Shown here: positions 43,891 through 64,000 of the stretch, piece by piece | Layout of the letters: every line of letters begins with the position of its first letter | How positions within the stretch are numbered: position 1 is the stretch's first letter | DNA from: Engelhardtia mirabilis | GTDB taxonomy: Bacteria; Planctomycetota; UBA1135; GCA-002686595 | Direction: 5' to 3' | Assembly (NCBI GenBank): GCA_007751255.1 | Contig: CP036296.1 | Coordinates: 1,488,001-1,552,000, forward strand | DNA length: 64,000 nucleotides | Notes under the pieces: generated by a model | Database searches by the model: none | What the model was told of the DNA's origin: nothing | The model's input: the letters and a program-made list of their open reading frames with translations, nothing else | Program-made: the position numbers and the translations under genes

Positions 43891-46089
43891 TCAGGGTGCG
43901 TCGAAGCGCACCAGGGTCTGCTCGCCCACGGTCGTCTCGATCTCGATCTCCTCCAACTGCTCGCCCAGGGACTCGAGGCGGACGATCAGAAGTCCGGGCG
44001 GTACGGCGACGGTGCGCGGAGACTCCGCGGAGACCGGCAAGCGGCAGTAGAGTCCGCCATCGGGTAGTTCGACGAAGACTCGTAGGCCCTCCGCGTCGCC
44101 CGCCTCGACGCGCAACTGTGCCGCGGGCAGGATCTCGACGCGTTGGTCGGTCAGCTCGTGACCACCGGCGATCAACACGCCGCGGCGCAGGCCGTACCAC
44201 TGGTGGTCGAGCGAGTCGAAGCGCAGGGAGTAGCTGGAGGGGGCGAGGGTGGCGACGGCGAACTCGTCGCCAGCGAAGAGCGGGAGCACCACGCCAGCCG
44301 CCGGCTGGAGCCCATGCTCGTCCTGCAGGACATGCAACCAACCCTCCATCGACGTCTCGCTTCGCGGTTCGATCACGCTGCCCGAAAGGGACCCGCCGAC
44401 GTCGAGGATCAACTCCACGTCGCGCGCCCCGGTCGCGACCCGCAGCGCTCTGAAGAGGCCGAACCCCGCGGGGGCTGCCACGGTAGTCAGGACGTACTCG
44501 CCGGGAGCCATGGCCTCGAGGCGAAAGCTGCCGTCTTCCCCGGTCTCGGTGGTGAAGCTTCCGGCGAGGTCGTCGCGCTTGGCCATCAAGGCGACGTCCG
44601 CCGCGGGGCTCCCGTCTGGAAACAGCACGCGCCCCGTGATCTCGTGGCCCTGGAACACTCGAACCGTGGTCTCGACCAGCGCGCTGCCGATGGGTACGTC
44701 GAGTGACTCGAGCACGGTCGCGGCCGGATGACGGATCCGCAGCCGATAGGGGGTGCCGTCGTCGCGGTACATGTCTTCGAAGATCCTCCCGCTTGGTCCG
44801 ACCAAGTAGCGTCCCGGCTCGATCGGCTCGAACTCGAAGCGACCCTCGACGTCCGCGCTGCAGAGGATCGAACCATCGCCCTCGATCGCCCGACGCGCGA
44901 TCTCGCTCGAATGCCGACCCCGTGGGCGGATCATCAGCTCCGCGTCGGGAACCGGTCGCCCGCTCGCGTCGACGGCGACACCCCGCACCGTGCAGTGCAA
45001 CTGGACCTGCCAGCGAAGGGGGCCGTTCTCGCCAGCCGCGAGGCGCAGGGGTGCGGGCTCCGTCCGCCACAGCTCATCTCCGCGCCACAGGGCCAACTCC
45101 AAATCGCGGCCGGCGGGCAGCCCGGCGAGGGCGACGCGACCGTCCTCAGTGCTCGGGGCCGACCACTGGCGTCCAGACCCGTCGCGCAAGCGCAGCTCGA
45201 AGCCCGGTACCGGGTTCTCGCTCTCGTCGACGATCGTGCCCTCCAGTGTGGCGCGCGGAGTCGCGTCGGGCGTTGCCGGCGCGCCTGCGGTCCGCTCGGC
45301 CGGTCCGGGCTCAGCGATTGGCGCCAACTCGGACCCTGGCCGCTGGGGGACCATGATCGCGACGACGGTCGCGGAATCGGTTTCAGGGCGAAGCGACGAG
45401 GTAGGGCGATCCTGAGTCAGGAGCACCAGCCCGAGGACGACGACGGAGGTCAGGACTGCGGCACCGACGAGGATCTTCATCGCAAGAATGGGGAACAGGG
45501 GCGGGGACACCGACGCGACCCACGACGGTCGCCGAATCCCGGGGGATACCAATGGCGCGAACGCCCCGAGCCAACCCGCTTCGCCCCCGTCGCGTTCGAG
45601 CCGTTCGCGCAGGGCGGCGTGGGCTCGGTTGAGGCGACGACTGACGGTCTCGGGCGAGGTGCCTTCCCGGCGCGCGATCTCGCGCGGCGTGAGCCCCTCG
45701 AAGTAGCGCTGCAACAGCACGAGCCGGTGCCCCTCGCCGAGGGCCAGCACGTGCACCACCAAGTTGCGGTGGGCCTCGGCCTGGTCGAGCAGGTCGGCGT
45801 GGGTGGCGACGCGCTCTTCTCGCGCGACTTGCTCCTCGCGCCAGCGGCGGCGGTTGTCGGCGCGCAGACGCGAGCGCAGCTTGTTGCGAACGATCGCCGC
45901 CAGCCGCGCGCTGGGCAGGAGCTGCCCGCTCCAACCCTGGCGCAGGGCGTCCAGCAGCGTGTCCTGGGTCGCGTCCTCGGCCAGGGCGGGATCGTCGACC
46001 ATGCGGCGCGCCAGGCGCAGGATCCACTCGCGCTGGCCGAGCAGGTCCAGGTCGGAGGGGTCGAAGGCGGCGGAGTGGGGTCCGTTCAC
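43891..46089 (-). CDS. ECF sigma factor fused to a transmembrane helix and periplasmic carboxypeptidase-regulatory-like domains
   Basis: 732 residues from a GTG in one uninterrupted frame. Residues about 14-80 are sigma region 2 (WILRLARRMVDDPALAEDATQDT) and 105-160 are sigma region 4 (HRLVLLQRYFEGLTPREIARREG, helix-turn-helix TSPETVSRRLNRAHAALRERL, shown in part). Residues about 198-224 form one transmembrane helix (LFPILAMKILVGAAVLTSVVV). The rest is a periplasmic stalk and CarboxypepD_reg-like modules (GTIVDESENPVPGFEL, GVAVDASGRPVPDAELM, GRVLFPDGSPAADVAL). It would direct RNA polymerase while tethered to the membrane, so it may sense envelope signals directly or by proteolytic release. 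An internal ATG at 45480 could alternatively start a separate membrane protein. Confidence 0.85.
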   Translation of the reverse strand: MNGPHSAAFDPSDLDLLGQREWILRLARRMVDDPALAEDATQDTLLDALRQGWSGQLLPSARLAAIVRNKLRSRLRADNRRRWREEQVAREERVATHADLLDQAEAHRNLVVHVLALGEGHRLVLLQRYFEGLTPREIARREGTSPETVSRRLNRAHAALRERLERDGGEAGWLGAFAPLVSPGIRRPSWVASVSPPLFPILAMKILVGAAVLTSVVVLGLVLLTQDRPTSSLRPETDSATVVAIMVPQRPGSELAPIAEPGPAERTAGAPATPDATPRATLEGTIVDESENPVPGFELRLRDGSGRQWSAPSTEDGRVALAGLPAGRDLELALWRGDELWRTEPAPLRLAAGENGPLRWQVQLHCTVRGVAVDASGRPVPDAELMIRPRGRHSSEIARRAIEGDGSILCSADVEGRFEFEPIEPGRYLVGPSGRIFEDMYRDDGTPYRLRIRHPAATVLESLDVPIGSALVETTVRVFQGHEITGRVLFPDGSPAADVALMAKRDDLAGSFTTETGEDGSFRLEAMAPGEYVLTTVAAPAGFGLFRALRVATGARDVELILDVGGSLSGSVIEPRSETSMEGWLHVLQDEHGLQPAAGVVLPLFAGDEFAVATLAPSSYSLRFDSLDHQWYGLRRGVLIAGGHELTDQRVEILPAAQLRVEAGDAEGLRVFVELPDGGLYCRLPVSAESPRTVAVPPGLLIVRLESLGEQLEEIEIETTVGEQTLVRFDAP

Positions 46090-50565: not shown

Positions 50566-52503
50566 GTGAAGACCCTCACCACCATCTCCGCAGCCCTCGC
50601 GCTCGCCGGCGTCGCCAACGCCGCCGACGTCCAGGTCACGGCCGACATCACCACGTCGACCGTCTGGACCGCCAACAACAAGTACGAGCTGGTCGGCCAG
50701 ATCTACGTCCGCAACGGCGCGACGCTGACCATCGAAGCCGGCACCGTGATCGCCAGCAACGACGGTGGCAGCCTCGCCATCACCCGCGGCTCCCAGATCT
50801 TCGCCAACGGCACGGCCACCGACCCGGTGATCATGACCTCGACCGAGGACGTGGCCACCTGGACCGGCGGCAACCCGAAGTCCGGCCAGTGGCGCGAAGG
50901 CGCCAACGAGTGGGGCAACCTCACCATCATGGGTGACGCCTACATCGCCGAGGACGCGGTCGGTGCGAACACCGCCACGCCGAACGCCAACAACGTCGCC
51001 AACATGGAGGGCCTCGTCCTCCAGCCCGGCCAGAACGCCCAGGACGTCCAGTACGGCGGCGGCGACGACGACTACGACGCGGGCACCCTCAGCTACGTGT
51101 CCCTGCGTTACGGCGGGCGCGTGGTCGGCCTCAACAACGAGCTCAACGGTCTCTCCCTGGGTGGCCTCGGTCGCGGCACCGACATCCACCACATCGAGAT
51201 CATGAACAACGTCGACGACGGCATCGAATGCTGGGGCGGCACGGTCAACTTCAAGCACATCTCGATCTGGAACGTCGGTGACGACAGCTTCGACATCGAC
51301 CAGGGCTGGCGCGGCCAGGCCCAGTTCGGCCTGATCGTCCAGGGCTTCAGCCTGGACGCCTCCCAGGGCTCGGGCGTCGGCGACAACGCCATCGAGCACG
51401 ACGGCGCCGAGGACTCCGACTACCAGCCGGTGACCACGGGCCAGATCTACAACTTCACCGTGATCGGCCAGCCCGTCGACGGTGACGGCCTCACGGCCTG
51501 GCGCGACAACGCCCGCATGCAGTACCGCAACTGCATCTTCATGGACTGCGGCGAGAAGGTCGTGCGCTTCGACGGCGACGACGGCGACGGCGCCAGCGGC
51601 TACGGCCACAACGGCACCCTCGACTGGCTCTCCACCTGGAGCACCGCGGACACGGTCACCTCGACCGTCAACGCTCCGGCCAACCCGGCCGCGTTCTACC
51701 AGGCCCAAGAGGGCGGCAACCTGGCCGAGATCTCGGACTCGGTCTTCTTCCGGAACTTCAACTCGGACGCCTACACCGAGGCGATCAACGTCGGCGCCGT
51801 GACCAACGGCTCCGTCGGCGCCCAGGCCAACAACAACGTGATCGCCGACCTCTCGGCCTCGCCGATCGCCTCGATCGTGCGCCACAGCCCGCAGACCAAG
51901 GGCGGCAAGATCATGGTCCGCGTGGTCAAGCTCGACCCCCGCGCCACCAACGACGCCCTGGTCAGCGCTGGCTCCGCGCCCGCCGACGGCTTCTACACCC
52001 CCGCCAACTACCGTGGCGCCTTCGACTCGACGACGAACTGGGCGGAGGGTTGGACGGCCGCTGACGCCTACGGCTTCTTCGACGTCACCTCGGCCCAGGT
52101 CGCCCAGCGCACCAGCCCGAACAACGTCGCCGACAGCATGAACCTGACCCCGGCGCCGGTCCTCGGCGCGTCGGTCGCGTTCACCTTCGACCCCGCCGGC
52201 AACTGCGGCGTCTCGGCCGGCCAGCTGTACTTCCTGTACTACGGCCTGCCCGGTGCGGCGACCCCGCTGCCCTTCTTCTCGGGCTGCTCGGCCTTCCCCT
52301 TCGGCGACCTGCTGATCGGCCTGGTCGGCTCCAGCAACCTGGCCAGCGGCGCCTACACCGGCATCCCCGGCTCGGTGCCGGTGACCCTGCCCCTTGCCGG
52401 TGAACTCTGCGGCGCGACCCTGTCGGCCCAGAACATCTACGTCAGCCTGACGACCTTCGGCACCACGGCCGGCAACGCGGTCGACTTCACCTTCGGCATC
52501 TGA
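50566..52503 (+). CDS. Secreted beta-helix-like protein next to a TonB-dependent receptor
   Basis: 645 residues from a GTG, signal peptide ISAALALAGVANA. The mature part begins with GQIYVRNGATLTIEAGTVI (cap of a right-handed beta-helix, as in many secreted repeat proteins). It continues with turns rich in Asn, Asp and Gly: GNLTIMGDAYI, LSYVSLRYGGRVVG, IHHIEIMNNVDDGIECWGGTV, FKHISIWNVGDDSFDID. Several calcium-like acidic clusters (GDDDYD, DGDDGDG) are visible. The last 120 residues resemble the shared C-terminal domain (GIPGSVPVTLPLAGELCGATL). Its position just before a TonB-dependent receptor suggests a secreted substrate-binding partner. Codon use is strongly biased to C-ending codons, hinting at high expression. 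Confidence 0.8.
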   Translation: MKTLTTISAALALAGVANAADVQVTADITTSTVWTANNKYELVGQIYVRNGATLTIEAGTVIASNDGGSLAITRGSQIFANGTATDPVIMTSTEDVATWTGGNPKSGQWREGANEWGNLTIMGDAYIAEDAVGANTATPNANNVANMEGLVLQPGQNAQDVQYGGGDDDYDAGTLSYVSLRYGGRVVGLNNELNGLSLGGLGRGTDIHHIEIMNNVDDGIECWGGTVNFKHISIWNVGDDSFDIDQGWRGQAQFGLIVQGFSLDASQGSGVGDNAIEHDGAEDSDYQPVTTGQIYNFTVIGQPVDGDGLTAWRDNARMQYRNCIFMDCGEKVVRFDGDDGDGASGYGHNGTLDWLSTWSTADTVTSTVNAPANPAAFYQAQEGGNLAEISDSVFFRNFNSDAYTEAINVGAVTNGSVGAQANNNVIADLSASPIASIVRHSPQTKGGKIMVRVVKLDPRATNDALVSAGSAPADGFYTPANYRGAFDSTTNWAEGWTAADAYGFFDVTSAQVAQRTSPNNVADSMNLTPAPVLGASVAFTFDPAGNCGVSAGQLYFLYYGLPGAATPLPFFSGCSAFPFGDLLIGLVGSSNLASGAYTGIPGSVPVTLPLAGELCGATLSAQNIYVSLTTFGTTAGNAVDFTFGI

Positions 52504-52521
52504 TTCCGAGCCTTTGAAGAC

Positions 52522-52549
52522 GGCCCGCGGGGGTGAACACCCGCGGGCC
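52522..52549 (+). terminator. 10-bp GC hairpin after the beta-helix gene
   Basis: GGCCCGCGGG (52522-52531) and CCCGCGGGCC (52540-52549) with an 8-nt loop, 18 bp past the stop. No U-run. It may terminate a highly expressed monocistronic mRNA or attenuate readthrough into the downstream locus. Confidence 0.6.
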
Positions 52550-52670
52550 GATCCGGTTGCGCGGTCCTCGGCTCCTTGCCGCCGAGGACCGCGTCGGCCG
52601 TTGCCGGACCCTGACGAACATCCCTGGCCGAAACCCGCCGGGGCAACCGACTCCCAGCGACTCGATCGAC

Positions 52671-53957
52671 ATGCTGTCCCTGATTCACGGTTCGACCGCC
52701 CTCCTGCGCACGTGCGGCGCCGCCGCCCTGTTCCTGCCCCTCTTCGCCGGCCTCGCCCTGGGCGGGGTCCAGGATGGCGACGAGGTCCCGGAGTTCGCGA
52801 GCCTGGCCACCCCCGCGGTGGTGCTCGACGCGGACCTGCCGGTGGACGCCGAGCTGGCGCCGTTCCAGCTCGAGCTGCTCGGCATGGCCTTCAATGCCGT
52901 GTCCCAGCTCCCGCTCCAGCCGCACATCAAGAACCGCGCACTGGGGCAGCAGGCCGTGGTCGAGACCTGCCTGGAGCTGGGGCTGCCCCAGCGCGCCCTG
53001 CGCTACTCGCGCGAGATCCCCAACTGGCGCAGGGGCTTCGGCTTCGCGTCGCTGGCCTACTGGTGCGCCGAGCGGGACCTGCGCTCCGCCTTCGAGCGCT
53101 ACGAGGACCTGGCCCTCGAGGTGGCCGAGACCGATCAGGACTGGCGCCGCGACCGTATTCGCGTGCAGGTGGCGCGGGCCCACGAGCTGCTGGGTGACTC
53201 GGCCCTGGCCGAGGCCTTGAGCGCCGACGCCATCGACGCCGAGGCGGGCAAGCTGCGCGCCGAGCGGGCCGCGAAGGCCGGCGGCGAGGAGTTCGAAGAG
53301 ATCCTGGCCTTCCTCGAGGAATCCGCCCGGGTGCAGTCCTTCGACCTGACCGGGGCCGGGATCGAGGCCTGTCTGCGGCTCTTCGATCGCTTCTACGACG
53401 ACGAGGAGCGCCGTGAGCAGGTGGTCGACGCGATCGTGGCCTCCTGGCGCGGCGTGCCGCTCGATCGGCGCATCGATGCCCTGGTGTCCCTGGCCGATGC
53501 ATCCGTCGCCCACGGTGACGAGCAGCGTGCCCGCGCCTTCGTCGAAGAGGCCCTGGCCATCGTCGACGGCGGCAGGTGGACCCTCGAGCACGAGGTGCCC
53601 CTGCGCGCGCAGCTCGCCGCGGCGCGCTACCGTGCCGGCGAAGGCGACCGCGCCCGTGCGGAGGCCGCCGACACCCTCTCGCGCTACAAGGCCGGCCGCG
53701 AGGAGCTGGCGACCATGTTCCGCGCGCGAACCCTGCGCCCCTTGGCGGAGGCCCTGGCCGAGATGGGGGACGGGCCCGCCGCTGCGACGGTGTTCGAGCT
53801 GACCATCGAGGACGGCGCGCTCAACGCCAACTCGCGCCCGCGCGCCCTCGACCTGGCGGACACATGCCTGGCCATGGCTCGTCACGGTGTGGAGCCGAAC
53901 GAGGAGTTGTGGCTGCGATTGCGCGCGATCCACGCGGGACTCGGCGATCCGTGGTGA
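52671..53957 (+). CDS. Secreted alpha-helical repeat protein, TPR-like
   Basis: 428 residues. Signal peptide STALLRTCGAAALFLPLFAGLA (cleaved before the GGVQDGDE region). The rest is almost entirely helical with degenerate TPR/SEL-like units: QAVVETCLELGLPQRALRYSREIP, ASLAYWCAERDLRSAFERYEDLA, RVQVARAHELLGDSALAEALS, LVSLADASVAHGDEQRARAFVEEALA, AQLAAARYRAGEGDRARAEAADTL, and RTLRPLAEALAEMGDGPAAATVFEL (each quoted in part). No enzymatic motif. Such proteins scaffold complexes, so it may work with the receptor and TonB machinery that follow. The ATG at 52671 gives the signal peptide directly. Confidence 0.75.
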   Translation: MLSLIHGSTALLRTCGAAALFLPLFAGLALGGVQDGDEVPEFASLATPAVVLDADLPVDAELAPFQLELLGMAFNAVSQLPLQPHIKNRALGQQAVVETCLELGLPQRALRYSREIPNWRRGFGFASLAYWCAERDLRSAFERYEDLALEVAETDQDWRRDRIRVQVARAHELLGDSALAEALSADAIDAEAGKLRAERAAKAGGEEFEEILAFLEESARVQSFDLTGAGIEACLRLFDRFYDDEERREQVVDAIVASWRGVPLDRRIDALVSLADASVAHGDEQRARAFVEEALAIVDGGRWTLEHEVPLRAQLAAARYRAGEGDRARAEAADTLSRYKAGREELATMFRARTLRPLAEALAEMGDGPAAATVFELTIEDGALNANSRPRALDLADTCLAMARHGVEPNEELWLRLRAIHAGLGDPW

Positions 53958-54361
53958 TCGGCAGTCCTTCGCCGTCGACTCGGAACACGAACTGCTGATC
54001 CAGGACACTCGATCGAGTCGCCGACCGCCCCGCGGCCCGTTGTCGAGATCCTCGACAGCGGGCCGCTCGCATGTGCGAGGCGTGTTCGCGCGCGCTGGCT
54101 TGACCCACTCTGCAAGGCCCATTGATCTGCGCTTGATCCGGCGTCTTTACAGTCCGCGCCCGATCGATGGAGAGGCCTTCATCGAGTCGACGAAACGCGC
54201 GCGACCCCAGCTCTTGACGAGAGCGACGCGCCGCCCTGGATCCACCCGGATCCCCCGAGCCCGGGACCTCCGCGCGCGCCGCGAGCGCTGCGAACAGGGT
54301 CCGGGGTCCGTCCCGGGTGGGCCGAAATCCGCCCGCCCCCCCAAACGTCCTCCCCCTAGGC
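53958..54361. other. 404-bp intergenic region before the TonB-dependent receptor
   Basis: It holds a strong terminator-like hairpin (54032-54066) and then sequence with possible promoter pieces (TTGACC at 54100-54105, TTGATC at 54133-54138, TACAGT at 54148-54153). None has ideal spacing. No gene or RNA is recognised. The receptor gene probably starts its own transcript here. Confidence 0.4.
54032..54066 (+). terminator. 15-pair hairpin after the helical-repeat gene
   Basis: GCGGCCCG-T-TGTCGA (54032-54046) pairs with TCGACA-G-CGGGCCGC (54052-54066); the T-G step can wobble. Loop GATCC. It lies 75 bp past the stop at 53957 without a U-tract. Confidence 0.6.
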
Positions 54362-57300
54362 GTGCATTCACGAACCGTGTTCGTTCGGCTGTCCACCTGC
54401 GTCCAGCGCAGCAAAGGAACGGCCCTGTGGAGCCTCGGCCTCGCGCTCTTGGCCGCCGTGGAGCTGACCGCGCCGCTCTCGGCCGCCAGTCAGGACGGCG
54501 CCGGCTCGGTGCGCGGCACGGTCCTCGACCGCGACTTCGAGGCGCCGTTGCAGGGAGCCACCGTGCTGGTGGTGGAGACGGGCGCCCAGGCCGAGACCAG
54601 TAGCCAGGGCACCTACCTGCTGTCGGAGCTGCCGGCGGGGACCTACACCCTGGTGTTCTCCAAGGACGGCTACGTGCGCCAGGTCAGTACGGTCGCGGTC
54701 GGCGCCGGTGCCCTGACCGAGGCCGACACCGCGCTCAAGGGCGACTTCACCGAGATGGAGGAGTTCATCGTCCAGGACGTTCTTCAACTGGGCGGCGGCG
54801 CGGAGCTGGTGCTGCTCGGCCTGCGCTTCGAGAGCTCGTCGCTGATGGACTCGATCGGCTCGGAGCTGATGAGCCGCGCCGGCGCCAGCGACGCCGCCAG
54901 CGCCTTGCGACTGGTCCCCGGCGCCACCGTCAAGGATGGCAAGTCGGCGGTCATCCGCGGCCTGCCCGACCGCTACATCAGCTCCCAGCTGAACGGAGTG
55001 CGACTGCCCTCCGCCGACGCGGAGAAGCGCGCCGTCGACCTGGACCAGTTCCCCTCCGCGGCGATCGAGAGCATCCAGGTCTCCAAGACCTTCACCCCCG
55101 ACCAGCAGGGTGATGCCTCCGGCGGCGCGGTCAACGTGGTCCTGAAGGGCGTCCCGGACGAGTCGATCCTGCAGTTCAAGGCCCAGGTCTCGAGCAACAC
55201 CAACGTCTACGGTCGCGACGACTTCCTGACCTACGCGGGCGGCGGGGTCGACGCCTTCGGCGTCAACGCCGGCAACGACGTGCAGGGCGAGAACATCGGC
55301 GGCGACTGGGACGGGGCCGTCGGTACCTCACGCGGCAGCGCGCCGGCCCAGTACAAGCTCGGCGCGGCCATGGGCGGCAGCCGCGACCTGGACTCCGACT
55401 GGCGCATCGGCGGCTTCCTGGGCCTGTTCTACGAACGCGACAGCAGCTTCTACGACAACGGCATCAACGACTCCTACTGGATCGACGGCGGTCCGGGTAC
55501 GCCCCTGACCCCCGAGGCCAAGCAGGGCTCGGTGGGGGACGGCGACTTCAAGACCGCCCTGTTCGACGTGACCAAGGGCTCGGAATCCGTGCGCTGGGGC
55601 GGCCTGGCGACCTTCGGCGTGACGTCCGAGCTGAACACCATCGGCCTGTCCTACCTGTACTCCCGCACGGCCGACGACACCGCGACCCTGGCGGTCGACA
55701 CGCGCGGCAAGGAGTACTACGTCAAGGACGTCCTGGGCCAGCCGGACTACGACCCGAACGATCCCATGGATCCGGGGCACAACACGAACAACATCGATGC
55801 CGCGCCCTACCTGCGTAGCCAGACCCTGACCTACACCGAGCGCTGGACCGGCTCGCTGCAGCTCTCCGGTCAGCACTCCCTGGGTCGCGACGAGCTGGGC
55901 GAGGCCGCTGGCGCGTCCTTCGGACCGCCCGAGCTGGAGTGGTCTGCGGCCCTGAGCTCGGCCAACCTGAACCAGCCGGACAGCCGCCAGTTCGGCACCT
56001 TGTGGAAGCCGGCCTCCTTCAAGCCGGGGATCCCGGGGATCATCCCGGACATCACCACCGACCCGGTCTACGCCCCCTTCAAGCCCGGGGCGAACATCAA
56101 CTTCGGCAACTTGCAGCGGGTCTTCCGGCGCATCGAGGAGAACAGCGAGCAGCTCGCCCTCGAGCTGCGCTTCCCCTTCGAGCGCGGCCAGGGGATGGAC
56201 GGCTTCATCGAGTTCGGCGCCTACGACGACAGCGTCGAGCGCAAGTACGACCAGGACACCTTCACCAACCCCGGCGACTCCGGTGACGAGTTCGTGGCCG
56301 GCTTCGACGAGTTCTGGAGTGACGCCTGGCCCGACGAGATCGACCACGCGATCATCGCCTCGGATACCGACGTCGACTACGACGGCCAACAGGACATCTT
56401 CGCCTGGTACGGGATGGTCGACTTTCCGCTGGACGACCACTGGAGCCTGATCGGCGGCGCGCGCTTCGAGTCGACGCAGATCGGAATCCAGAACCTCCCC
56501 GAGGCGGACGTCTTCTGGGTTCCGCCCGGCAAGGACGCGCTCGAGGTCCTGACGCCCGGCGCGGCGGACGTGGACTTCCAGCGGGACGACATCCTGCCCG
56601 CCCTGGCCCTGGTCTGGGAGCCGTCGGACCGCTGGACCCTGCGCGGATCCTGGTCCCAGACGATCGCGCGCCAGACCTTCCGCGAGCTGACTCCGATCAT
56701 CCAACAGGAGTTCGTCGGCGGTCCGATCTTCATCGGCAACCCGAACCTGGGCATGAGCTCGCTCGAGAACTGGGACCTGCGCGCGGACTTCCGGCCCTAC
56801 GAGGGCGGCCTGCTGTCGGCTTCGTGGTTCTACAAGGACATCGACGACGCGATCGAGTTGATCCAGGACCTGTCGCCCAACGGCTTCAGCTTCACCACGC
56901 CGGTCAACTACCCGAAGGGGACGCTCAGTGGCTTCGAGTTCGAGGCGCGCCAGGACCTTGGTCGCTACGACCGCGACCTGAACGGCCTGACCGTGGGCGC
57001 CAACGCGACCTTCATCGAGTCCAACGTGATCCTGCCCAGCGAGGATGCGGCGGAGTTCGCGGACCTGGGTTTCCCCACCGAGCAGCGCGACCTCCTGAGC
57101 GCTCCCGAGTACCTCTACAACCTGTTCCTGACCTACGACGTCGAGGGGCACGGCACCCAGATCGGCCTGTTCTACACGGTGCAGGGCGACACGTTGGTGG
57201 CGGGCGCGGGCATCAGCAACAACAACTACGTGCCCGACGTCTACGCCAAGCAGGTGGGAACCCTGAACCTGAGTCTGCAGCAGCCGATCTCGAAGTCGGG

Positions 57301-57442
57301 CGTGCTGCGGATCCAACTCAAGAACCTGACCGACCCGGCGATCCAGGAGGTCTACCGCTCGCAGTACATCGAGGGCGAGCAGGTCAAGACCTCCTACACC
57401 CGCGGCATCGAGGTCTCCCTGGGCCTCAGCTTCTCCTTCTAG
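54362..57442 (+). CDS. TonB-dependent outer-membrane receptor
   Basis: 1026 residues from a GTG (54377 is also possible); signal peptide LWSLGLALLAAVELTAPLSAA. Residues about 45-125 are a CarboxypepD_reg-like domain (GTVLDRDFEAPLQGATVLVV, GTYLLSELPAGTYTLVFSKDG). The plug follows: LRLVPGATVKDGKSAVIRG, PDRYISSQLNGVRLPS, and IESIQVSKTFTPDQQGDASGG. The large beta-barrel ends in SFSF with a terminal Phe, as needed for outer-membrane assembly. It imports a large or scarce substrate using energy from the TonB-ExbB-ExbD genes directly downstream. The N-terminal extension is typical of receptors for glycans or proteins; the substrate is unknown. Confidence 0.9.
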   Translation: MHSRTVFVRLSTCVQRSKGTALWSLGLALLAAVELTAPLSAASQDGAGSVRGTVLDRDFEAPLQGATVLVVETGAQAETSSQGTYLLSELPAGTYTLVFSKDGYVRQVSTVAVGAGALTEADTALKGDFTEMEEFIVQDVLQLGGGAELVLLGLRFESSSLMDSIGSELMSRAGASDAASALRLVPGATVKDGKSAVIRGLPDRYISSQLNGVRLPSADAEKRAVDLDQFPSAAIESIQVSKTFTPDQQGDASGGAVNVVLKGVPDESILQFKAQVSSNTNVYGRDDFLTYAGGGVDAFGVNAGNDVQGENIGGDWDGAVGTSRGSAPAQYKLGAAMGGSRDLDSDWRIGGFLGLFYERDSSFYDNGINDSYWIDGGPGTPLTPEAKQGSVGDGDFKTALFDVTKGSESVRWGGLATFGVTSELNTIGLSYLYSRTADDTATLAVDTRGKEYYVKDVLGQPDYDPNDPMDPGHNTNNIDAAPYLRSQTLTYTERWTGSLQLSGQHSLGRDELGEAAGASFGPPELEWSAALSSANLNQPDSRQFGTLWKPASFKPGIPGIIPDITTDPVYAPFKPGANINFGNLQRVFRRIEENSEQLALELRFPFERGQGMDGFIEFGAYDDSVERKYDQDTFTNPGDSGDEFVAGFDEFWSDAWPDEIDHAIIASDTDVDYDGQQDIFAWYGMVDFPLDDHWSLIGGARFESTQIGIQNLPEADVFWVPPGKDALEVLTPGAADVDFQRDDILPALALVWEPSDRWTLRGSWSQTIARQTFRELTPIIQQEFVGGPIFIGNPNLGMSSLENWDLRADFRPYEGGLLSASWFYKDIDDAIELIQDLSPNGFSFTTPVNYPKGTLSGFEFEARQDLGRYDRDLNGLTVGANATFIESNVILPSEDAAEFADLGFPTEQRDLLSAPEYLYNLFLTYDVEGHGTQIGLFYTVQGDTLVAGAGISNNNYVPDVYAKQVGTLNLSLQQPISKSGVLRIQLKNLTDPAIQEVYRSQYIEGEQVKTSYTRGIEVSLGLSFSF

Positions 57443-57492
57443 CTAGCCCTGAGAACACAGAGAGCTCCGCGCCAGGCGCGCGGACCACGACC

Positions 57493-58302
57493 ATGAACAA
57501 CACCACACAACAACGCCCCGGTTTCCGCAGGATCACGATCGCCTCGGCGGTCGTGACCGGCTTGGCCGCCGCCGCCCTCGTGGGCGCCGCGGTGCCCGTG
57601 CAGGACGGCTCTCAGCTGGAGAGCACGCGCACGGCCCTGGAGAGCTGGGTCCAGACCCGCCGGCTGATCTCGTCCGAGCGCGAGCAGTGGCGTCTGGGTC
57701 GCGAGCTGCTCACCAGCGAGGTCGAGCTGATGCGCGACTCGATCGCGTCGCTGGACGAGGATATCGCCGCCGGTCGGGCGCAGATCTCGGAGACCGACAC
57801 CAAGCGCGAGGAGCTGGTGGCGACCCACGAGCGGCTGAAGGAGTCCTCCGCCGGGCTCGCGGCCGGCGTGGAAGCTCTGGAGGGCCGCGTGCGTGAGCTG
57901 CTCGTGCGCCTGCCCGATCCGGTCCTCGAGCGGGTGCGGCCCCTGATCCAACAGCTCCCCGAGGCGGGGGCCGAGACCAAGCTGGGCCTGGCCGAGCGCT
58001 ACCGCAACGTGGTCGGGATCCTCGACCAGGTGGGCAAGTTCAACCGCGAGATCTCCGTCACCAGCGAGGTGCGCGAGCTCTCGAGCGGCAACAGCGCCGA
58101 GGTCTCCGCCATGTACCTGGGTCTGGGCCAGGCCTACTTCGTCACCGGCGACGGCAAGTCGGCGGGCGTCGGGCGGCCGACCGCTCAGGGCTGGGTCTGG
58201 ACGCCGCGCGACGACGCGGCCCCCGAGATCGCGGCAGCGATCGAGGTCTACAAGCAAGAGCGGCCGGCGTCCTTCGTGCGCTTGCCGATCCAGGTCGACT
58301 GA
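57493..58302 (+). CDS. DUF3450 family periplasmic coiled-coil protein
   Basis: 269 residues. Signal segment ITIASAVVTGLAAAALVGAAV. Residues about 40-145 are a long coiled coil (ESTRTALESWVQTRRLISSE, LMRDSIASLDEDIAAGRAQIS, VATHERLKESSAGLAAGVEAL). A compact C-terminal region follows: ILDQVGKFNREISVTSEVREL, MYLGLGQAYFVT, GWVWTPRDD. This matches DUF3450, a family regularly found before a long ExbB, ExbB, ExbD and TonB in TtpC-type TonB systems. It is probably a periplasmic accessory subunit of the motor. It begins 50 bp after the receptor gene and is separated from the next gene by 20 bp, so it is part of the operon. Confidence 0.9.
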   Translation: MNNTTQQRPGFRRITIASAVVTGLAAAALVGAAVPVQDGSQLESTRTALESWVQTRRLISSEREQWRLGRELLTSEVELMRDSIASLDEDIAAGRAQISETDTKREELVATHERLKESSAGLAAGVEALEGRVRELLVRLPDPVLERVRPLIQQLPEAGAETKLGLAERYRNVVGILDQVGKFNREISVTSEVRELSSGNSAEVSAMYLGLGQAYFVTGDGKSAGVGRPTAQGWVWTPRDDAAPEIAAAIEVYKQERPASFVRLPIQVD

Positions 58303-58322
58303 CGCGCGCGGAGCCAAGCACC

Positions 58323-59954
58323 ATGGACATGCAACACAACGTGGGCGTCCTCGCCCTGACCCTTGCCGCGCTGCTGGCGCAGGGCCCCCGGGCCACGGCC
58401 CAGGTCGACCTCACCACGGACGCTCCGCCGGTGGGCGGCTTCGTGGAGGCCGCCGAGTCGATTCAAGCGGAGCTCGAGTCGAGCGTCGCCGAGTTGGAGG
58501 CCCTGCAGACGCGGATCGTCGATGAGAAGCTGCCGCTCAGCCGTGAGCTGGCCGAGCTCGAGCAGCGACGCCGCGACGCCCGCGCCGAGTTCGACCAGGT
58601 CTCGCGTACCCTGGCCACCCGCGCCCTGGACCTGACCCGGCTGACCGGGCAGATCGAGGACCTGGAGGACGAGACGGCCTTCCTGTCGACGCTGCTGGTC
58701 GACTACATCCGCAATTTCAAGGCCTCGCTCCACATCGCCGAGCGCCAGCGCTACGAGGAGGTCCTCGAGGCCGCGGGCCTGGCGCCGGAGAACGACGCGC
58801 TGACCAAGCAAGAGGTCTTCCTCGAGCAGTCGCGACTGCTCGACGAATCCATCGATCGGCTGATGGAGGCGGCCGGCGGCACGCGTTTCGACGGTCGCGC
58901 GGTGGGTAGCGACGGGCTGGTCGAGAACGGCACCTTCCTGCTGGCCGGGCCCCTGGCCCTGTTCCGCTCGCGCGACGGGCGTCAGGTGGGGACGGTCGAG
59001 GACCTCGCCAAGTCGACGCAGCCGCGGGTGGTTGCCTTCGAGGAGCGCGAGGATGCGGCTGCGGCCGAGGCTCTGGTCACCGCTGGCGGCGGCCTGTTCC
59101 CGGTCGACACGACCCTCGGCAACGCGCACAAGATCGCGGCCACCGAGGAGACCTTCATCGGGGAGCTCGAGAAGGGCGGCACGGTGATCTGGCCGATCCT
59201 GGGCATGGCCACCGTGGCCCTGGTGGTCGCGATCTTCAAATGGCTGTCGCTCTCCTTCGTGCGGCGTCCGTCGAAGGCGCAGCTCGCGGGGCTGCTCGAC
59301 GCAGTGCGCTCGCGCGACGTCGAGGCCGCCGAGCGCCAGGCCCGCAAGATGCGCGGCCCGGTCGGTCGCATGTTGGCAGCCGGCGTGGAGCACCTGCGCC
59401 AGCCGCGGGAGCTGATCGAGGAGGTCATGTACGAGACCGTGCTGACCACGCGCCTGCGCCTGAACCGCATGCTGCCCTTCATCGCGATCTGCGCCGCCTC
59501 GGCGCCGCTGCTCGGTCTGCTGGGCACCGTGACCGGCATCATCAACACCTTCAAGCAGATCACGCTGTTCGGATCCGGCGACGTGAAGATGCTCTCGGGC
59601 GGCATCTCCGAGGCGCTGATCACGACCAAGTACGGCCTGATCGTCGCGATCCCGTCGCTGATGTTGCACGCGTTCCTCTCGCGCAAGGCGCGAGGGATCG
59701 TGGGTGAGATGGAGACCTCGGCCGTGGCCTTCATGAACGAGGTCAGCCGCATGCCGTCGAAGCGCCGCGGCGGTTCGTCGGGCGGCGACGGCGAGGACTC
59801 GGTGACTCTGATGCCCTCGGACCCCGAGCTGGTCCGGCGTCAGGTGAGCGAGGTGCTGAACGACCTGCTCGGCCCCCTCGTGGACGAGAGCGAGGCCGCG
59901 GGCCGCTCGTCCGGCGCAGGTCGCGTCGTGCCCCCGGCCTCGAGTCGTAGCTGA
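58323..59954 (+). CDS. Long MotA/TolQ/ExbB-family protein, TtpC-like
   Basis: 543 residues. Signal peptide to about residue 26, then a periplasmic coiled coil (residues about 40-125 and 140-185), a linker domain, and a membrane part. The first helix is at about 287-310 (VIWPILGMATVALVVAIF). The proton-channel signature APLLGLLGTVTGIINTF lies at 394-410 and ISEALITTKYGLIVAIP at 428-444. The C-terminal 75 residues are a cytoplasmic tail. A periplasmic domain before an ExbB core is the design of TtpC in Vibrio TonB2 systems, which links the ExbB/ExbD motor to TonB function. The gene ends 5 bp before the second exbB. Confidence 0.9.
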   Translation: MDMQHNVGVLALTLAALLAQGPRATAQVDLTTDAPPVGGFVEAAESIQAELESSVAELEALQTRIVDEKLPLSRELAELEQRRRDARAEFDQVSRTLATRALDLTRLTGQIEDLEDETAFLSTLLVDYIRNFKASLHIAERQRYEEVLEAAGLAPENDALTKQEVFLEQSRLLDESIDRLMEAAGGTRFDGRAVGSDGLVENGTFLLAGPLALFRSRDGRQVGTVEDLAKSTQPRVVAFEEREDAAAAEALVTAGGGLFPVDTTLGNAHKIAATEETFIGELEKGGTVIWPILGMATVALVVAIFKWLSLSFVRRPSKAQLAGLLDAVRSRDVEAAERQARKMRGPVGRMLAAGVEHLRQPRELIEEVMYETVLTTRLRLNRMLPFIAICAASAPLLGLLGTVTGIINTFKQITLFGSGDVKMLSGGISEALITTKYGLIVAIPSLMLHAFLSRKARGIVGEMETSAVAFMNEVSRMPSKRRGGSSGGDGEDSVTLMPSDPELVRRQVSEVLNDLLGPLVDESEAAGRSSGAGRVVPPASSRS

Positions 59955-59959
59955 GCGCC

Positions 59960-60715
59960 ATGGACGAGTTCTTCCAACGCGCACTCGGTCAACTGGGCCT
60001 GATCTGGCAACAGGCGATCGACATCTGGACCCAGGGCGGGCTGGCCATGATCGCCATCGCGGTGATCGCGCTGGTGATGTTCGCCATGGGGGTGCACGTG
60101 CACCTGCGCCTCGAGGAGACCGGCTTCCAGTCGGTTCCCGAGCGCACCTGGCGCGACTGGATCGACCACCCGGCCCAGCGTCGGGGTCCGATCGGCGACC
60201 TGCTCGACCTGGTCACCGGGGGGTCTTCGATCGAGGAGACCGCGGTGTTCTTCAAGCACATGCGCGCCACCGAGACGATCCCCTTCGAGCGCGACTTGAA
60301 GGTGATGAAGATCTGTGTCAGCGCCGCGCCGCTCGTGGGCCTGCTCGGGACGGTCACCGGGATGCTCTCGACCTTCGGCGCCCTCTCCTCGGGCGGCGGC
60401 GGCGACAAGACCATGGGCATGGTCGCCGCCGGCATCTCCGAGGCTCTGATCACGACCGAGACGGGACTCGTGATCGCCCTGCCCGGGCTCTTCTTCCAGT
60501 ACCAACTGCGGCGCCGCTTCGAGGGCTACAAGGCCTTCCTGGCGCACTTGGAGACGGTCTGCACCCAATCCGTCTACCAGCGTACGCACCGGAAGGTGAA
60601 GCAGCGCGCCCGTCGCGAGGCCCTGGCGCGCGTGGCCCAGACCCTGCGGAACAGCCTGTCCGCGCGTGCGGCCGCTGGGAGCGCCGCCGGGACCGGTGGC
60701 GAGGCCGCGGGCTGA
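59960..60715 (+). CDS. exbB: ExbB-family proton channel subunit
   Basis: 251 residues. First helix at about 27-47 (LAMIAIAVIALVMFAMGVHV), a cytoplasmic loop, then APLVGLLGTVTGMLSTF (123-139) and ISEALITTETGLVIALP (159-176) with the conserved Thr residues of the proton path. The C-terminal tail is basic then Ala/Gly-rich. Together with ExbD it forms the proton-driven motor that energises TonB. It starts 5 bp after the TtpC-like gene and precedes exbD by 42 bp. Being short and lacking the periplasmic extension, it is the canonical ExbB of the pair. Confidence 0.9.
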   Translation: MDEFFQRALGQLGLIWQQAIDIWTQGGLAMIAIAVIALVMFAMGVHVHLRLEETGFQSVPERTWRDWIDHPAQRRGPIGDLLDLVTGGSSIEETAVFFKHMRATETIPFERDLKVMKICVSAAPLVGLLGTVTGMLSTFGALSSGGGGDKTMGMVAAGISEALITTETGLVIALPGLFFQYQLRRRFEGYKAFLAHLETVCTQSVYQRTHRKVKQRARREALARVAQTLRNSLSARAAAGSAAGTGGEAAG

Positions 60716-60757
60716 GCGCCCTCCGAGACACCAACGACCAACCAACGAGCACTGACC

Positions 60758-61171
60758 ATGGGACGTTTCAGCGAATCCATCGCGGACGACGAGGGCGAGA
60801 CCGGCATCGACATGTCGCCGCTGATCGACTGCGTCTTCATCCTCCTGATCTTCTTCATCGTGACCACGGTCTTCGTGGAGGAGACGGGGGTCGAGGTCGA
60901 TCGCCCGGAGGCGGCTTCGGCCTCGCAGCTCGAGAAGACCAGCCTCTTGATCGCTCTCACCGCCGCAGGCGAGATCGTCTACGACGGGCGCAACATCGGG
61001 ATCGGCGGCGTACAGCCCCTGGTGCGTCAGATGCTGCAGAAGGATCCGGTGCCGATCATCGTCCAGGCGGACAAGAACTCCGGTTCGGGCCTTCTGGTGC
61101 AGATCATCGGCGAGGCCAAGGCGGCGGGCGCCGAGAAGGTCAGCGTCGCGGCTCTGGCCACGGGGGGCTGA
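60758..61171 (+). CDS. exbD: ExbD/TolR-family motor subunit
   Basis: 137 residues, usual ExbD length. One transmembrane helix (about 20-40) starts with IDMSPLIDCVFILLIFFIV (quoted in part); Asp24 matches the protonatable Asp of E. coli ExbD (D25). The periplasmic domain has SQLEKTSLLIALTAAGEIVYDG and PVPIIVQADKNSGSGLLVQII, the typical ExbD fold. It sits between exbB and tonB in the operon. It converts proton flow through ExbB into motion transmitted to TonB. Confidence 0.92.
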   Translation: MGRFSESIADDEGETGIDMSPLIDCVFILLIFFIVTTVFVEETGVEVDRPEAASASQLEKTSLLIALTAAGEIVYDGRNIGIGGVQPLVRQMLQKDPVPIIVQADKNSGSGLLVQIIGEAKAAGAEKVSVAALATGG

Positions 61172-61178
61172 GGGCGCC

Positions 61179-61847
61179 ATGGTCACGGAATCCCGCGACG
61201 TACCCCTGCGCGAGCGCCTGTCCCATGGCGTCCAGGTCCTGATCGGAGCCGTGGTCTCGACCACGGCGATCTTCTTCGTGCTGCCGCTGCTGCAGGCGAT
61301 CACCGACCGCGCGCCGCGCGAGAGTCGCATCGAGGCCTTCGAGGTGGCCGAGGTGCCGCCGCCCCCGGCACCCGAGGAGGAGCCGCCGCCGCCGGAGGAG
61401 GAACCGGAGGAAGAGCCGCCGGAGCTCGAGCCCGAGCGGCAGCTGCTGGATCTCTCGCAGCTCGAGCTGGCGCTCAACCCGAGCTTCGGCGACGGGCTGC
61501 TGCAGGGCGACTTCGAGATCAAGCTCGGCGGCTTCGGCCAGGGCGGCGCCGACGTGGCTGAGCTCTTCTCCCTGGCCGACCTCGACCAACGTCCCCGCGC
61601 CGTCTACCAGACCCAGCCGGTGCAGGACGCCAAGACGCGGCGCCTGGCGCCCGCCACCGTCTACATCATCTTCATCGTCGACGAGCAGGGGCGCGTGGAG
61701 AACCCGCGCGTGCAGTCGTCGCCGGACCCGGCCTTCGAACGGCCTGCGCTCGCGGCCGTGCGCCAGTGGCGCTTCGAGCCGGGCAAGCGCGGCGGCCAGC
61801 CGGTGCGCTTCCGCATGCGCGTCCCGATCACCTTCCCCAAGTCCTGA
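61179..61847 (+). CDS. tonB: TonB-family energy transducer
   Basis: 222 residues. N-terminal helix (about 20-42: VLIGAVVSTTAIFFVLPLL), a Pro/Glu-rich stretch (58-85) that spans the periplasm, and a C-terminal TonB domain (about 138-222) with TVYIIFIVDEQGRVENPRVQ and AVRQWRFEPGKRGGQPVRF followed by MRVPITF. The spacer is short compared with E. coli TonB, fitting TonB2-type proteins that rely on TtpC. The gene begins 7 bp after exbD and ends 11 bp before the TPR lipoprotein gene. It would contact the TonB box of the receptor at 54362. Confidence 0.9.
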   Translation: MVTESRDVPLRERLSHGVQVLIGAVVSTTAIFFVLPLLQAITDRAPRESRIEAFEVAEVPPPPAPEEEPPPPEEEPEEEPPELEPERQLLDLSQLELALNPSFGDGLLQGDFEIKLGGFGQGGADVAELFSLADLDQRPRAVYQTQPVQDAKTRRLAPATVYIIFIVDEQGRVENPRVQSSPDPAFERPALAAVRQWRFEPGKRGGQPVRFRMRVPITFPKS

Positions 61848-61858
61848 GGCCAAAGACC

Positions 61859-63403
61859 ATGCAACGACTCCAAACGACCGTCTCGCGCAGCGCCGCGGGG
61901 CAGACCGCGACCTCGGGGCAGGGGCGCCTGGTGGGCATCGCCGCGGGACTCGCCTGCCTGCTCGCCTCCTGCGCGGGGACCTCGACCCAGGTGCGCGACT
62001 TCGCGCCCCTGGCCCAGGCTGCTCCGCGCGGGACCGCCGCGGCCTCGGTTCCGACCGCGGCGGCACTGACCCGCGCTTCCGTCGGAAGCGCGGTGGCCGC
62101 GATGCCCCAGCGCCGTCTGGAGCTGCCCCTGTGGACCGACCCGAAGTTCCAGCGGCGCTTCACCGAGAGCTACATGGCCCAGACCGAGGTCGAACCCCGG
62201 CTGACCGAGCTCGAGCGCGAGACCATGCAAGAGTTCCTCGACCTGATGAGCGCCGACAAGGTCGACCAGGCGGCGACCTTGATGCGCGAACAGCGTGGTG
62301 ACGCCTCGAGCGCGGTGTTCGACTTCTCCCTGGCGAACATCCACTTCCAGGCGGACGAGCTGAATCAGGCGGCGTCGGCCTACGAGGCCGCGGTCGAGAA
62401 GTTCCCCAAGTTCCTGCGGGCCTGGAAGAACCTGGGCCTGGTGCGCGCGCGCCAGAGCGAGTTCTCCCACGCGGCGGCGGCCTTCACCGAGGTGCTGGAG
62501 CTGGGCGGCGGGGACGCCACGACCTACGGCCTCTTGGGCATCGCCCGCATGAACCTGGGCCAGGACATGGCCGCGGAGTCGGCCTTCCGCATGGCCACCA
62601 TGCTCGATCCGGTCACGCCCGACTGGCGCATGGGGCTGGCGCGCTGCTTCTTCAACCAGAAGCGCTTCGCCGAGGCCGTTTCCCTGACCGAGTCGATGAT
62701 CGCGGAGGACCCCGATCGCGCCGAGCTCTGGCTCTTGCAGGCCAATGCCTTCATCGGCCAGGGGGACGCCGGCCACGCCGCCGAGAACTACGAGCTCGTC
62801 GACCGTCTGGGCGGGTCGACCGTCGGTAGCCTGACCACCCTGGGCGACATCTACGTCAACGAGAAGCTGTTCGACATGGCAGCGGACGCCTACGCCCGGG
62901 CCCTCGACATGGACCTGTCCGGTGAACTCGCCCGACCCATGCGAGCGGCGGGCATCCTCGCCGCCCGCGGAGCCCTGGAGCCCACCCGCGAGCTGATCGG
63001 GCGCATCGAGTGGCGCTTCGGCGATGCATTGGACGACGCGGGCCGCGTCGAGCTGCTCAAGTTGAAGGCACGCCTGTCCCTGATCGAAGGCGCAGGCGAC
63101 GAGGAAGCGGCGATCCTCGAACAGGTCGTGGCCCTGGACCCCTTCGACGGCGACGCGCTGCTGCTGCTCGGCGACCACGCGCGCCGCAACGACGATCCGC
63201 AGAAGGCGATCTACTACTACGAACGCGCCTCGAACTTGGAAGAGTTCGAGGCCGAGGCCAAGGTGCGCCACGCCCAGGTCTTGGTGGACAGTGGCGACTA
63301 CGCGCCGGCCCTGCGCCTCTTGGAGCGGGCCCAGACCCTGCGCCCCCTCAGCAGCGTCCAGGACTACTTGGAGCGCGTGGACCGCGTCGCGAAGAACCGC
63401 TGA
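61859..63403 (+). CDS. TPR-repeat lipoprotein of the TonB locus
   Basis: 514 residues from the ATG at 61859; signal with lipobox (LLASC, Cys about 40). After a linker to about residue 125 there are ten or so TPR units, e.g. VFDFSLANIHFQADELNQAAS, AWKNLGLVRARQSEFSHAAAAF, YGLLGIARMNLGQDMAAESAF, MGLARCFFNQKRFAEAVSL, ELWLLQANAFIGQGDAGHAAE and LGDIYVNEKLFDMAADAYARA (each in part). TPR lipoproteins of this type end TtpC-type TonB operons and may organise the complex. The preceding tonB gene is 11 bp away; it converges with the Sel1-repeat gene, 30 bp apart. Confidence 0.85.
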   Translation: MQRLQTTVSRSAAGQTATSGQGRLVGIAAGLACLLASCAGTSTQVRDFAPLAQAAPRGTAAASVPTAAALTRASVGSAVAAMPQRRLELPLWTDPKFQRRFTESYMAQTEVEPRLTELERETMQEFLDLMSADKVDQAATLMREQRGDASSAVFDFSLANIHFQADELNQAASAYEAAVEKFPKFLRAWKNLGLVRARQSEFSHAAAAFTEVLELGGGDATTYGLLGIARMNLGQDMAAESAFRMATMLDPVTPDWRMGLARCFFNQKRFAEAVSLTESMIAEDPDRAELWLLQANAFIGQGDAGHAAENYELVDRLGGSTVGSLTTLGDIYVNEKLFDMAADAYARALDMDLSGELARPMRAAGILAARGALEPTRELIGRIEWRFGDALDDAGRVELLKLKARLSLIEGAGDEEAAILEQVVALDPFDGDALLLLGDHARRNDDPQKAIYYYERASNLEEFEAEAKVRHAQVLVDSGDYAPALRLLERAQTLRPLSSVQDYLERVDRVAKNR

Positions 63404-63433: not shown

Positions 63434-64000
63434 TCATCTCCCGGCGCGCGGGCGCCAGTTCGATGCGAAGTACTCGCCGTCGATGATCTGGTCGGCCGCG
63501 ATCCGGGCGCGTAGTGAGTCGCGCCGCTCAGCCGCATCCGCGTCGCCAGCGTGGGTCGCGACGGTGTACCAGCCATAGGCGGCGATCGGGTCCTGTTCGA
63601 CGCCGCGGCCGAGCTCGTACATGGAGCCGAGCTTGGTCTGGGCCTCGACCAGTCCGATGTCGGCGGCGGACCCGATCCAGCGCGCGGCGAGCTGCTCGTC
63701 CCGCTCGAGGAAGCGGCCCTGCAGGCACATCAGTCCGAGGTTGTACTGGGCCACGGGCTGGCCGCTGGCCGCCGCCAGCTCGAGCCAAGCCGCAGCCGCG
63801 CCGTCATCGGGGGACGCGGTGCGACCCGCGAGGTGCATCAGACCGAGGTAGGTCTGGGCCGTGGTCAGGTCTGCCTCGGCAGCGACCGTGAACCAGTGTT
63901 CGGCCGCGGCGTCGTCGGGATCGGTGCCCTGACCGAGGTAGGCCATGCGACCGGCCTCGAGGGCGGCTTCCGGCGAGCCGGCGTCAGCGGCGCGGGAGAA
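63434..64000 (-). CDS. Sel1-repeat protein (5' partial)
   Basis: The frame is open to the right edge, so the N-terminus lies outside the window. Sel1-like repeats (about 36 residues each) are visible: AALEAGRMAYLGQGTDPDD, AQTYLGLMHLAGRTASPDD, AQYNLGLMCLQGRFLERDE, AQTKLGSMYELGRGVEQDP, each preceded by a helix such as AAAAWLELAAASGQPV. They end with AAYGWYTVATHAGDADAAERRD and a short tail. Sel1 proteins are helical scaffolds in signalling or envelope complexes. Nothing shows a signal peptide in the visible part. Confidence 0.8.
   Translation of the reverse strand, partial: FSRAADAGSPEAALEAGRMAYLGQGTDPDDAAAEHWFTVAAEADLTTAQTYLGLMHLAGRTASPDDGAAAAWLELAAASGQPVAQYNLGLMCLQGRFLERDEQLAARWIGSAADIGLVEAQTKLGSMYELGRGVEQDPIAAYGWYTVATHAGDADAAERRDSLRARIAADQIIDGEYFASNWRPRAGR

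Follow-up and report, generated by a model that had tools for sequence, protein, structure and literature searches.

The genes described here have counterparts in two known systems. In Caulobacter, the surface lipoprotein ElpS (CC0170) is produced in phosphate starvation and is not raised by iron depletion, and the gene order is CC0170, the receptor CC0171 and gspC-N (PMC2996285). In Vibrio, the TonB2 system (TtpB2, TtpC2, TtpD2) has a DUF3450 protein first, a TtpC-type ExbB-family protein, ExbB, ExbD, TonB and a TPR protein (PMC6957404). We analysed a window of 64,000 nucleotides from the planctomycete Engelhardtia mirabilis, bases 1,488,001-1,552,000 on the larger of two contigs (CP036296.1) of a 6.95 Mb genome with a G+C of 71%. 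A run of nine genes in this window, 50566-63403 on the + strand, resembles both systems in part: a putative beta-helix protein (bh), a helical-repeat protein (hr), a TonB-dependent receptor, a DUF3450 protein, an ExbB-family protein with a coiled coil, ExbB, ExbD, TonB and a TPR protein. Their linkage exceeds chance and survives rearranged gene orders. We read them, with about as much confidence as doubt, as one TonB-energised system of two modules for capture at the outer-membrane surface, most likely of phosphate or a phosphorylated compound. An earlier note on this stretch placed the nine genes at these positions. Its description is borne out by Pfam and profile evidence: the DUF3450/TtpC-type TonB set is complete, has a receptor of its own and is accompanied by two secreted proteins, and the linkage is stronger than could be told from the letters of the window.

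The motor consists of six genes, all on the + strand. They encode a TtpB-like DUF3450 protein (57493-58302; Pfam 113 bits, cut-off 32.6), a TtpC-like protein with an N-terminal coiled-coil region and a MotA/ExbB domain (58323-59954), a second ExbB-family protein (59960-60715), ExbD with its membrane aspartate present in the alignment (60758-61171), TonB (61179-61847) and a TtpD-like TPR protein in which ASCAG may be a lipobox (61859-63403). The Pfam bit scores were 107 and 75.7 for MotA_ExbB in the two proteins, 91.1 for ExbD and 55.7 for TonB_C, with many TPR matches. In the TtpC-like protein, MotA_ExbB covers residues 345-464 of 543, and a weak coiled-coil DUF3450 match, in a part that would be periplasmic, lies at 41-129 (E 0.0034). 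The motor is of the TtpBCD type, having the DUF3450 protein, the TtpC-type protein, ExbB, ExbD, TonB and the TPR protein in one run. With likely start codons placed on the nine open reading frames (ORFs), the gaps from the receptor to the TPR gene are 50, 20, 5, 42, 7 and 11 bp by their coordinates, the same 5-50 bp that had been noted before. The order of the motor genes is that of the Alteromonadales, and presumably also that of the full Vibrio TonB2 set. Vibrio TonB2 serves iron (PMC6957404); the motor of the window is accompanied by bh, hr and a single receptor.

The surface genes precede the motor. The bh gene (50566-52503, +) encodes a secreted protein of 645 aa, probably of the ElpS family, with a core at about residues 21-505 (50626-52080) and a C-terminal domain at 506-645; as read from the sequence it has a signal peptide and no lipobox cysteine. 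It is followed by hr (52671-53957, +), a TPR-like solenoid of 428 aa ending in Pro-Trp, and by the receptor (54401-57442, +), in which Pfam finds an N-terminal CarboxypepD_reg domain, a plug and a barrel; the start codon of the receptor is uncertain, its ORF opening at 54317. Neither bh nor hr matched a Pfam family at E 0.1 or an NCBIfam family at E 0.01, and no SusD-type partner was found among the nine proteins in these scans. The Caulobacter pair is alike in that a surface protein, probably homologous, adjoins a TonB-dependent receptor (PMC2996285). In the window, however, hr sits between the two, and bh differs from ElpS by lacking the lipobox, by its extra C-terminal domain, and by its hr partner and Ttp motor. 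The Caulobacter pair also stands beside type II secretion (gsp) genes, whereas the nine genes include no gsp.

The linkage was followed in 392 planctomycete genomes. A bh match was found in 76 of these at E 0.001, and in 58 below 1e-20. DUF3450 was matched in 55 of the 58, although the matches in G043 and G298 do not reach the family cut-off. In 51 it was on the same contig as bh within about 7 kb: downstream on the same strand in 35, upstream on the same strand in 11 and on opposite strands in 5. The remaining seven comprise three without a listed DUF3450 (G316, G035, G143) and four that have it on another contig. An independent search for hr gave a strong match (E <1e-30) in 51/51 genomes with bh below 1e-60, within 0.7 kb of bh in 50 and at 10 kb in one. 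G140 also has a strong hr, fragmentary and interrupted by a stop, and none of the seven genomes with weaker bh has one. The associations are strong (Fisher p ~4e-44 for bh and DUF3450, ~1e-63 for bh and hr), both values ignoring the relatedness of the genomes. DUF3450 itself exceeded the Pfam cut-off in 81 of the 392 genomes, which does not support the idea that TtpC/DUF3450 sets would be unusual in this phylum. In 24 listed genomes it occurs without bh, which implies that the motor is not confined to the bh system.

A wider set of loci was obtained by scanning a GTDB-based genome collection with a bh alignment (A1) and keeping the best 79 of 196 relatives, a choice biased to close ones. They come mostly from planctomycetes, and also from records labelled Brocadia, Kuenenia, Omnitrophota, Sumerlaeota and Verrucomicrobia. 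Profiles made from the window proteins found hr in 76 of the 79 loci, the receptor in 66, TtpB in 62, TtpC, ExbD and TonB in 61 each, TtpD in 59 and ExbB in 46. Many of these contigs are short, and a separate analysis took the 41 loci that are 20 kb long or longer. Every one of them has bh, hr, receptor, TtpB, TtpC, ExbD, TonB and TtpD, and the motor is always of the Ttp type. The marker genes occur in five arrangements, a sixth differing solely by an extra TPR match, and in two loci the blocks are divergent. Co-occurrence of bh, hr and receptor with the TonB genes, the test named beforehand in the earlier note, is thus seen in 51/51 genomes for bh and hr and in 41/41 long loci. Chance adjacency is rejected by the co-occurrence of bh with DUF3450 and with hr, and by the gene content of the long loci. 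When the ORFs of 80 loci were clustered, no family beyond the nine was common to more than 17. One family near the module in 17/80 loci (seed L093 3669-4850) was clustered by BLAST, perhaps driven by repeats, and includes a Sel1-like ORF at 63437-64000 (-) of the window.

Outside the planctomycetes, distant bh relatives (26.5-40% identity) were found in 21 plasmid records, of which 19 were read with the planctomycete profiles. A receptor stands beside bh in 17 of the 19, the exceptions being Marinobacter and a weak match in Hymenobacter volaticus. The Ttp set is present in 11/11 Alteromonadales records and in 0/8 of the others; for L161 the sequence analysed does not extend to TtpB. A tblastn search with the window DUF3450 gave no match in the plasmids though DUF3450 genes are annotated there, because the query is too diverged. 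The loci of Alteromonas and Pseudoalteromonas are like the window in having bh, receptor, DUF3450, TtpC, ExbB, ExbD, TonB and TPR together, and differ in that bh has a lipoprotein signal in those cases in which its start was determined, has up to three tandem cores and lacks the hr partner. Three long bh proteins of these two genera have three tandem cores each, and that of Indioceanicola two. Tandem bh, as two copies in one long open frame, was also seen in strain Pla163 (L103), G311 and G380, which recalls the Alteromonadales. In a Bacteroides finegoldii plasmid (L164 6782-8074) the bh relative is split by a stop into two consecutive ORFs. Sphingomonas and Indioceanicola have the order bh, receptor, gsp genes, the synteny of Caulobacter ElpS-CC0171-gsp, and their syntenic proteins match the bh profile at 1.5e-50 and 4e-76. 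By homology and synteny, bh therefore probably belongs with ElpS.

The suggestion that the whole is an undescribed uptake system consequently needs to be narrowed. It is not wholly undescribed: the ElpS-type surface pair (PMC2996285) and the TtpBCD motor are each known, and the Alteromonadales already join bh, receptor and Ttp motor. We found no account of the combination of bh, hr, receptor and Ttp genes in the open-licence literature, a result that depends on the wording of the search. Three features look new: the constant partnership with hr, seen so far solely in planctomycetes and allies, the exchangeable C-termini of bh, and the split history of motor and surface genes.

The motor residues are well conserved. 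The membrane aspartate of ExbD is kept in 46/46 alignment rows and the two pore threonines of TtpC in 42/42, while Glu176 of E. coli ExbB is retained in planctomycete TtpC and not in four Alteromonadales TtpC. No second ExbB was found in 12 of the 41 long loci, and TtpC there abuts or overlaps ExbD. L097 is a thirteenth locus of this solo type; it joins the other 12 in the TtpC tree, and its ExbB match lies in a separate divergent cluster. The motor block thus lacks a separate ExbB in 13/41 long relatives of the window, as compared to Vibrio TonB2 (L085, L097, L106, L110, L115, L116, L123, L125, L136, L137, L140, L146 and L149). Arg128 and the E. coli-like Asn196 each occur in 12/12 solo TtpC, as compared to 15/30 and 1/30 of the paired TtpC, and the Alteromonadales TtpC score higher against the paired type. 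Solo is true of the locus and not of the cell, since three solo genomes have 3, 3 and 5 MotA/ExbB matches in all.

Trees were made for 42 loci, the 41 long ones and the window. The two motor types are separated by one change with support 100 in the TtpB, ExbD, TonB and TtpD trees, and in the TtpC tree by a fork of 100/100, likewise one change with 13 rows. The surface genes behave differently. The bh tree needs 9 changes of type, at least 6 of which are forced, the branches concerned being well supported (with 12 rows labelled; 76/500 shuffles were as low), the receptor tree 6 (4 forced) and the hr tree 7 (4 forced), with 13 rows each. A constraint holding the 13 solo loci together was rejected for bh (p 6e-74), the receptor (6e-5) and hr (0.001), in a test that used quick trees and a 13-member group fixed after the TtpC tree was seen. 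The motor genes therefore form two deep types, one with TtpC and ExbB and one with solo TtpC, and this division disagrees with the bh, hr and receptor trees. It seems that on several occasions either the motor was swapped as a block or two old copies disappeared by turns, and that bh, hr and the receptor remained in place.

The core of bh is mostly 54-69% identical to that of the window across strong planctomycete matches, and 47-48% in two, while its C-terminus is swapped for another or missing among relatives. The C-terminal domain had been called shared; it was not found in any other ORF of the window (best E 0.17). Nine residues show no variation in either alignment, over a range that extends from planctomycetes to Bacteroidota: Asp217, Asp218, Glu221, Asp239, Asp240, Asp243, Glu277, Asp279 and Arg313. 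A beta-helix, the fold first proposed for bh, is likely: the many short strands of the structure model (mean predicted local distance difference test, pLDDT, 80.9) make it plausible, although a Foldseek search gave no match at E <0.001, and no solved relative was found by sequence (best E 0.61). The model of hr is an all-helical TPR-like solenoid with 19 helices (mean pLDDT 91.5). Its structure search gave one match at E <0.001, and the matches were TPR and designed repeat proteins with a template modelling score to the query of at most 0.49 among the 50 listed. Pro-Trp stands at the very C-terminus of 68/74 hr ORFs (the window and the relatives L071-L149), several others being cut by contig ends.

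The whole genome has one DUF3450, one bh, 7 MotA/ExbB matches, 3 receptors and 3 TonB C-termini. Another receptor (contig C1, 2885417-2892713, at 2.885 Mb) has a MotA/ExbB match and TonB within about 7 kb, and cross-talk between motors is therefore possible in the host. No sigma-70-like site was found in a promoter scan 5' of bh. Elsewhere in the window, an ORF of 732 aa at 43891-46089 (-) has, by reading only, a start like that of an extracytoplasmic function (ECF) sigma factor, a likely membrane helix and then a long carboxypeptidase-regulatory-like repeat region.

In the system we propose, the surface module would consist of bh, hr and the receptor, and the motor module of TtpB, TtpC, ExbB, ExbD, TonB and TtpD. 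The ExbB-family proteins with ExbD would set TonB in motion by means of the proton gradient, in a motor coupled or scaffolded by TtpB and TtpD, and TonB would open the receptor, after which the ligand would be imported rather than exported. Capture of the substrate by bh at the surface, which the earlier note considered possible, is a reasonable guess; the protein would probably be located there, held by its exchangeable C-terminus, and capture or free the ligand nearby, with hr presumably as its partner at the same site.

For phosphate or a phosphorylated compound as the ligand our confidence is about one half, from homology and from other phyla. In Caulobacter, overproduction of ElpS is accompanied by more secreted alkaline phosphatase, low-phosphate stalks contain both ElpS and CC0171 (PMC2996285), and the PhoB regulon includes the type II secretion system and several receptors (PMC11208175). 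In Bacteroides fragilis, BF4134 (MotA/TolQ/ExbB) and BF4130 (phosphate-binding) are listed among the genes raised by low phosphate (PMC3547664). The Alteromonas plasmid, unlike the window, has Pho genes adjoining the bh locus: phoB, phoR and a phosphate-binding protein gene stand ahead of bh, with one oxygenase gene. PHO-like sites were found upstream of bh in 6/8 Pseudoalteromonas sequences (at -142 to -147), in Alteromonas (p 0.020) and in Sphingomonas (p 0.007), and none in Indioceanicola, Marinobacter, Parabacteroides or Hymenobacter. Several points weigh against this ligand and the wider proposal. CC0171 is reported to be constitutive, production of ElpS persisted after deletion of CC0171, and intracellular phosphate was unchanged (PMC2996285). 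The tie to ElpS is indirect, through the syntenic Sphingomonas and Indioceanicola proteins, and hr is found in 0/19 plasmid records. The p values of the Pseudoalteromonas sites are 0.007-0.163 each and not independent. Of 80 bh upstreams of planctomycetes and allies, with starts chosen by alignment, 7 scored at least 10 of 14 for a PHO box, as compared to 10.7 expected from shuffles. The PHO-site test is a weak one, since it did not pick out two genes that should have been positive, Alteromonas phoB (p 0.14) and the phosphate-binding gene (p 0.61). Single Alteromonas queries for PhoB, PhoR and the phosphate-binding protein found no Pho set near the 79 loci: PhoB-like matches occurred in 6 loci and exceeded 200 residues in only two of these (L134, L091), there was one PhoR-like match and none to the phosphate-binding protein, and a Pfam scan of ten ORFs from L134 and L091 gave no Pst protein.

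The same import machine may instead serve another ligand, a metal, a metal complex or a glycan, with a cation bound by the invariant acidic residues of bh; we hold this possible, at clearly lower probability. That Asp217 to Asp279 are kept from planctomycetes to Bacteroidota, that the Vibrio TonB2 motor, also a point against phosphate, serves iron uptake (PMC6957404), and that no Pho signal lies near the planctomycete copies all agree with it, but ElpS is not raised in iron-depleted medium (PMC2996285) and Pho genes are linked in Alteromonas. It is also conceivable, though unlikely, that the direction is the opposite one and that bh is exported or seated on the surface through the receptor, as by analogy with Oar and PopC in Myxococcus, hr being a carrier or ring. 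Oar-PopC is alike in the architecture of the receptor (PF13620, plug, barrel) and in its clustered Ton system; its cargo is a protease and the likeness is one of domain content (PMC6434023). Type II secretion is not what carries ElpS across the outer membrane, and the Caulobacter study leaves the route unexplained (PMC2996285); bh and hr are a fixed pair in planctomycetes. The Oar architecture, however, is common (28% of TonB-dependent transporters, PMC6434023) and so says little, and hr is missing outside the planctomycetes. We regard as equally improbable the fuller form of this idea, a surface-display machine in which the receptor and a private Ttp motor export or seat bh, hr is the periplasmic carrier or ring, and this protein job demands a motor of TtpB, TtpC and TtpD of either type. 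Finally, the genes could have separate functions and stand merely side by side, as the 24 listed genomes with DUF3450 and without bh might suggest; this is very improbable, given that the linkage is kept in 41/41 long loci through five arrangements, that bh and hr occur together in 51/51 genomes, and that the same set minus hr is present in the Alteromonadales.

The locus joins two poorly understood families in one machine across distant phyla: ElpS, with one phosphate-starvation study, and TtpBCD, known from Vibrio iron uptake. Furthermore, two motor types serving the same kind of surface module make a natural experiment on the role of TtpC, since TtpC is the sole ExbB-family protein encoded in the solo-type motor block. 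Should phosphorus prove to be the ligand, planctomycetes, the anammox bacteria among them, would have an energised route for scavenging it across the outer membrane.

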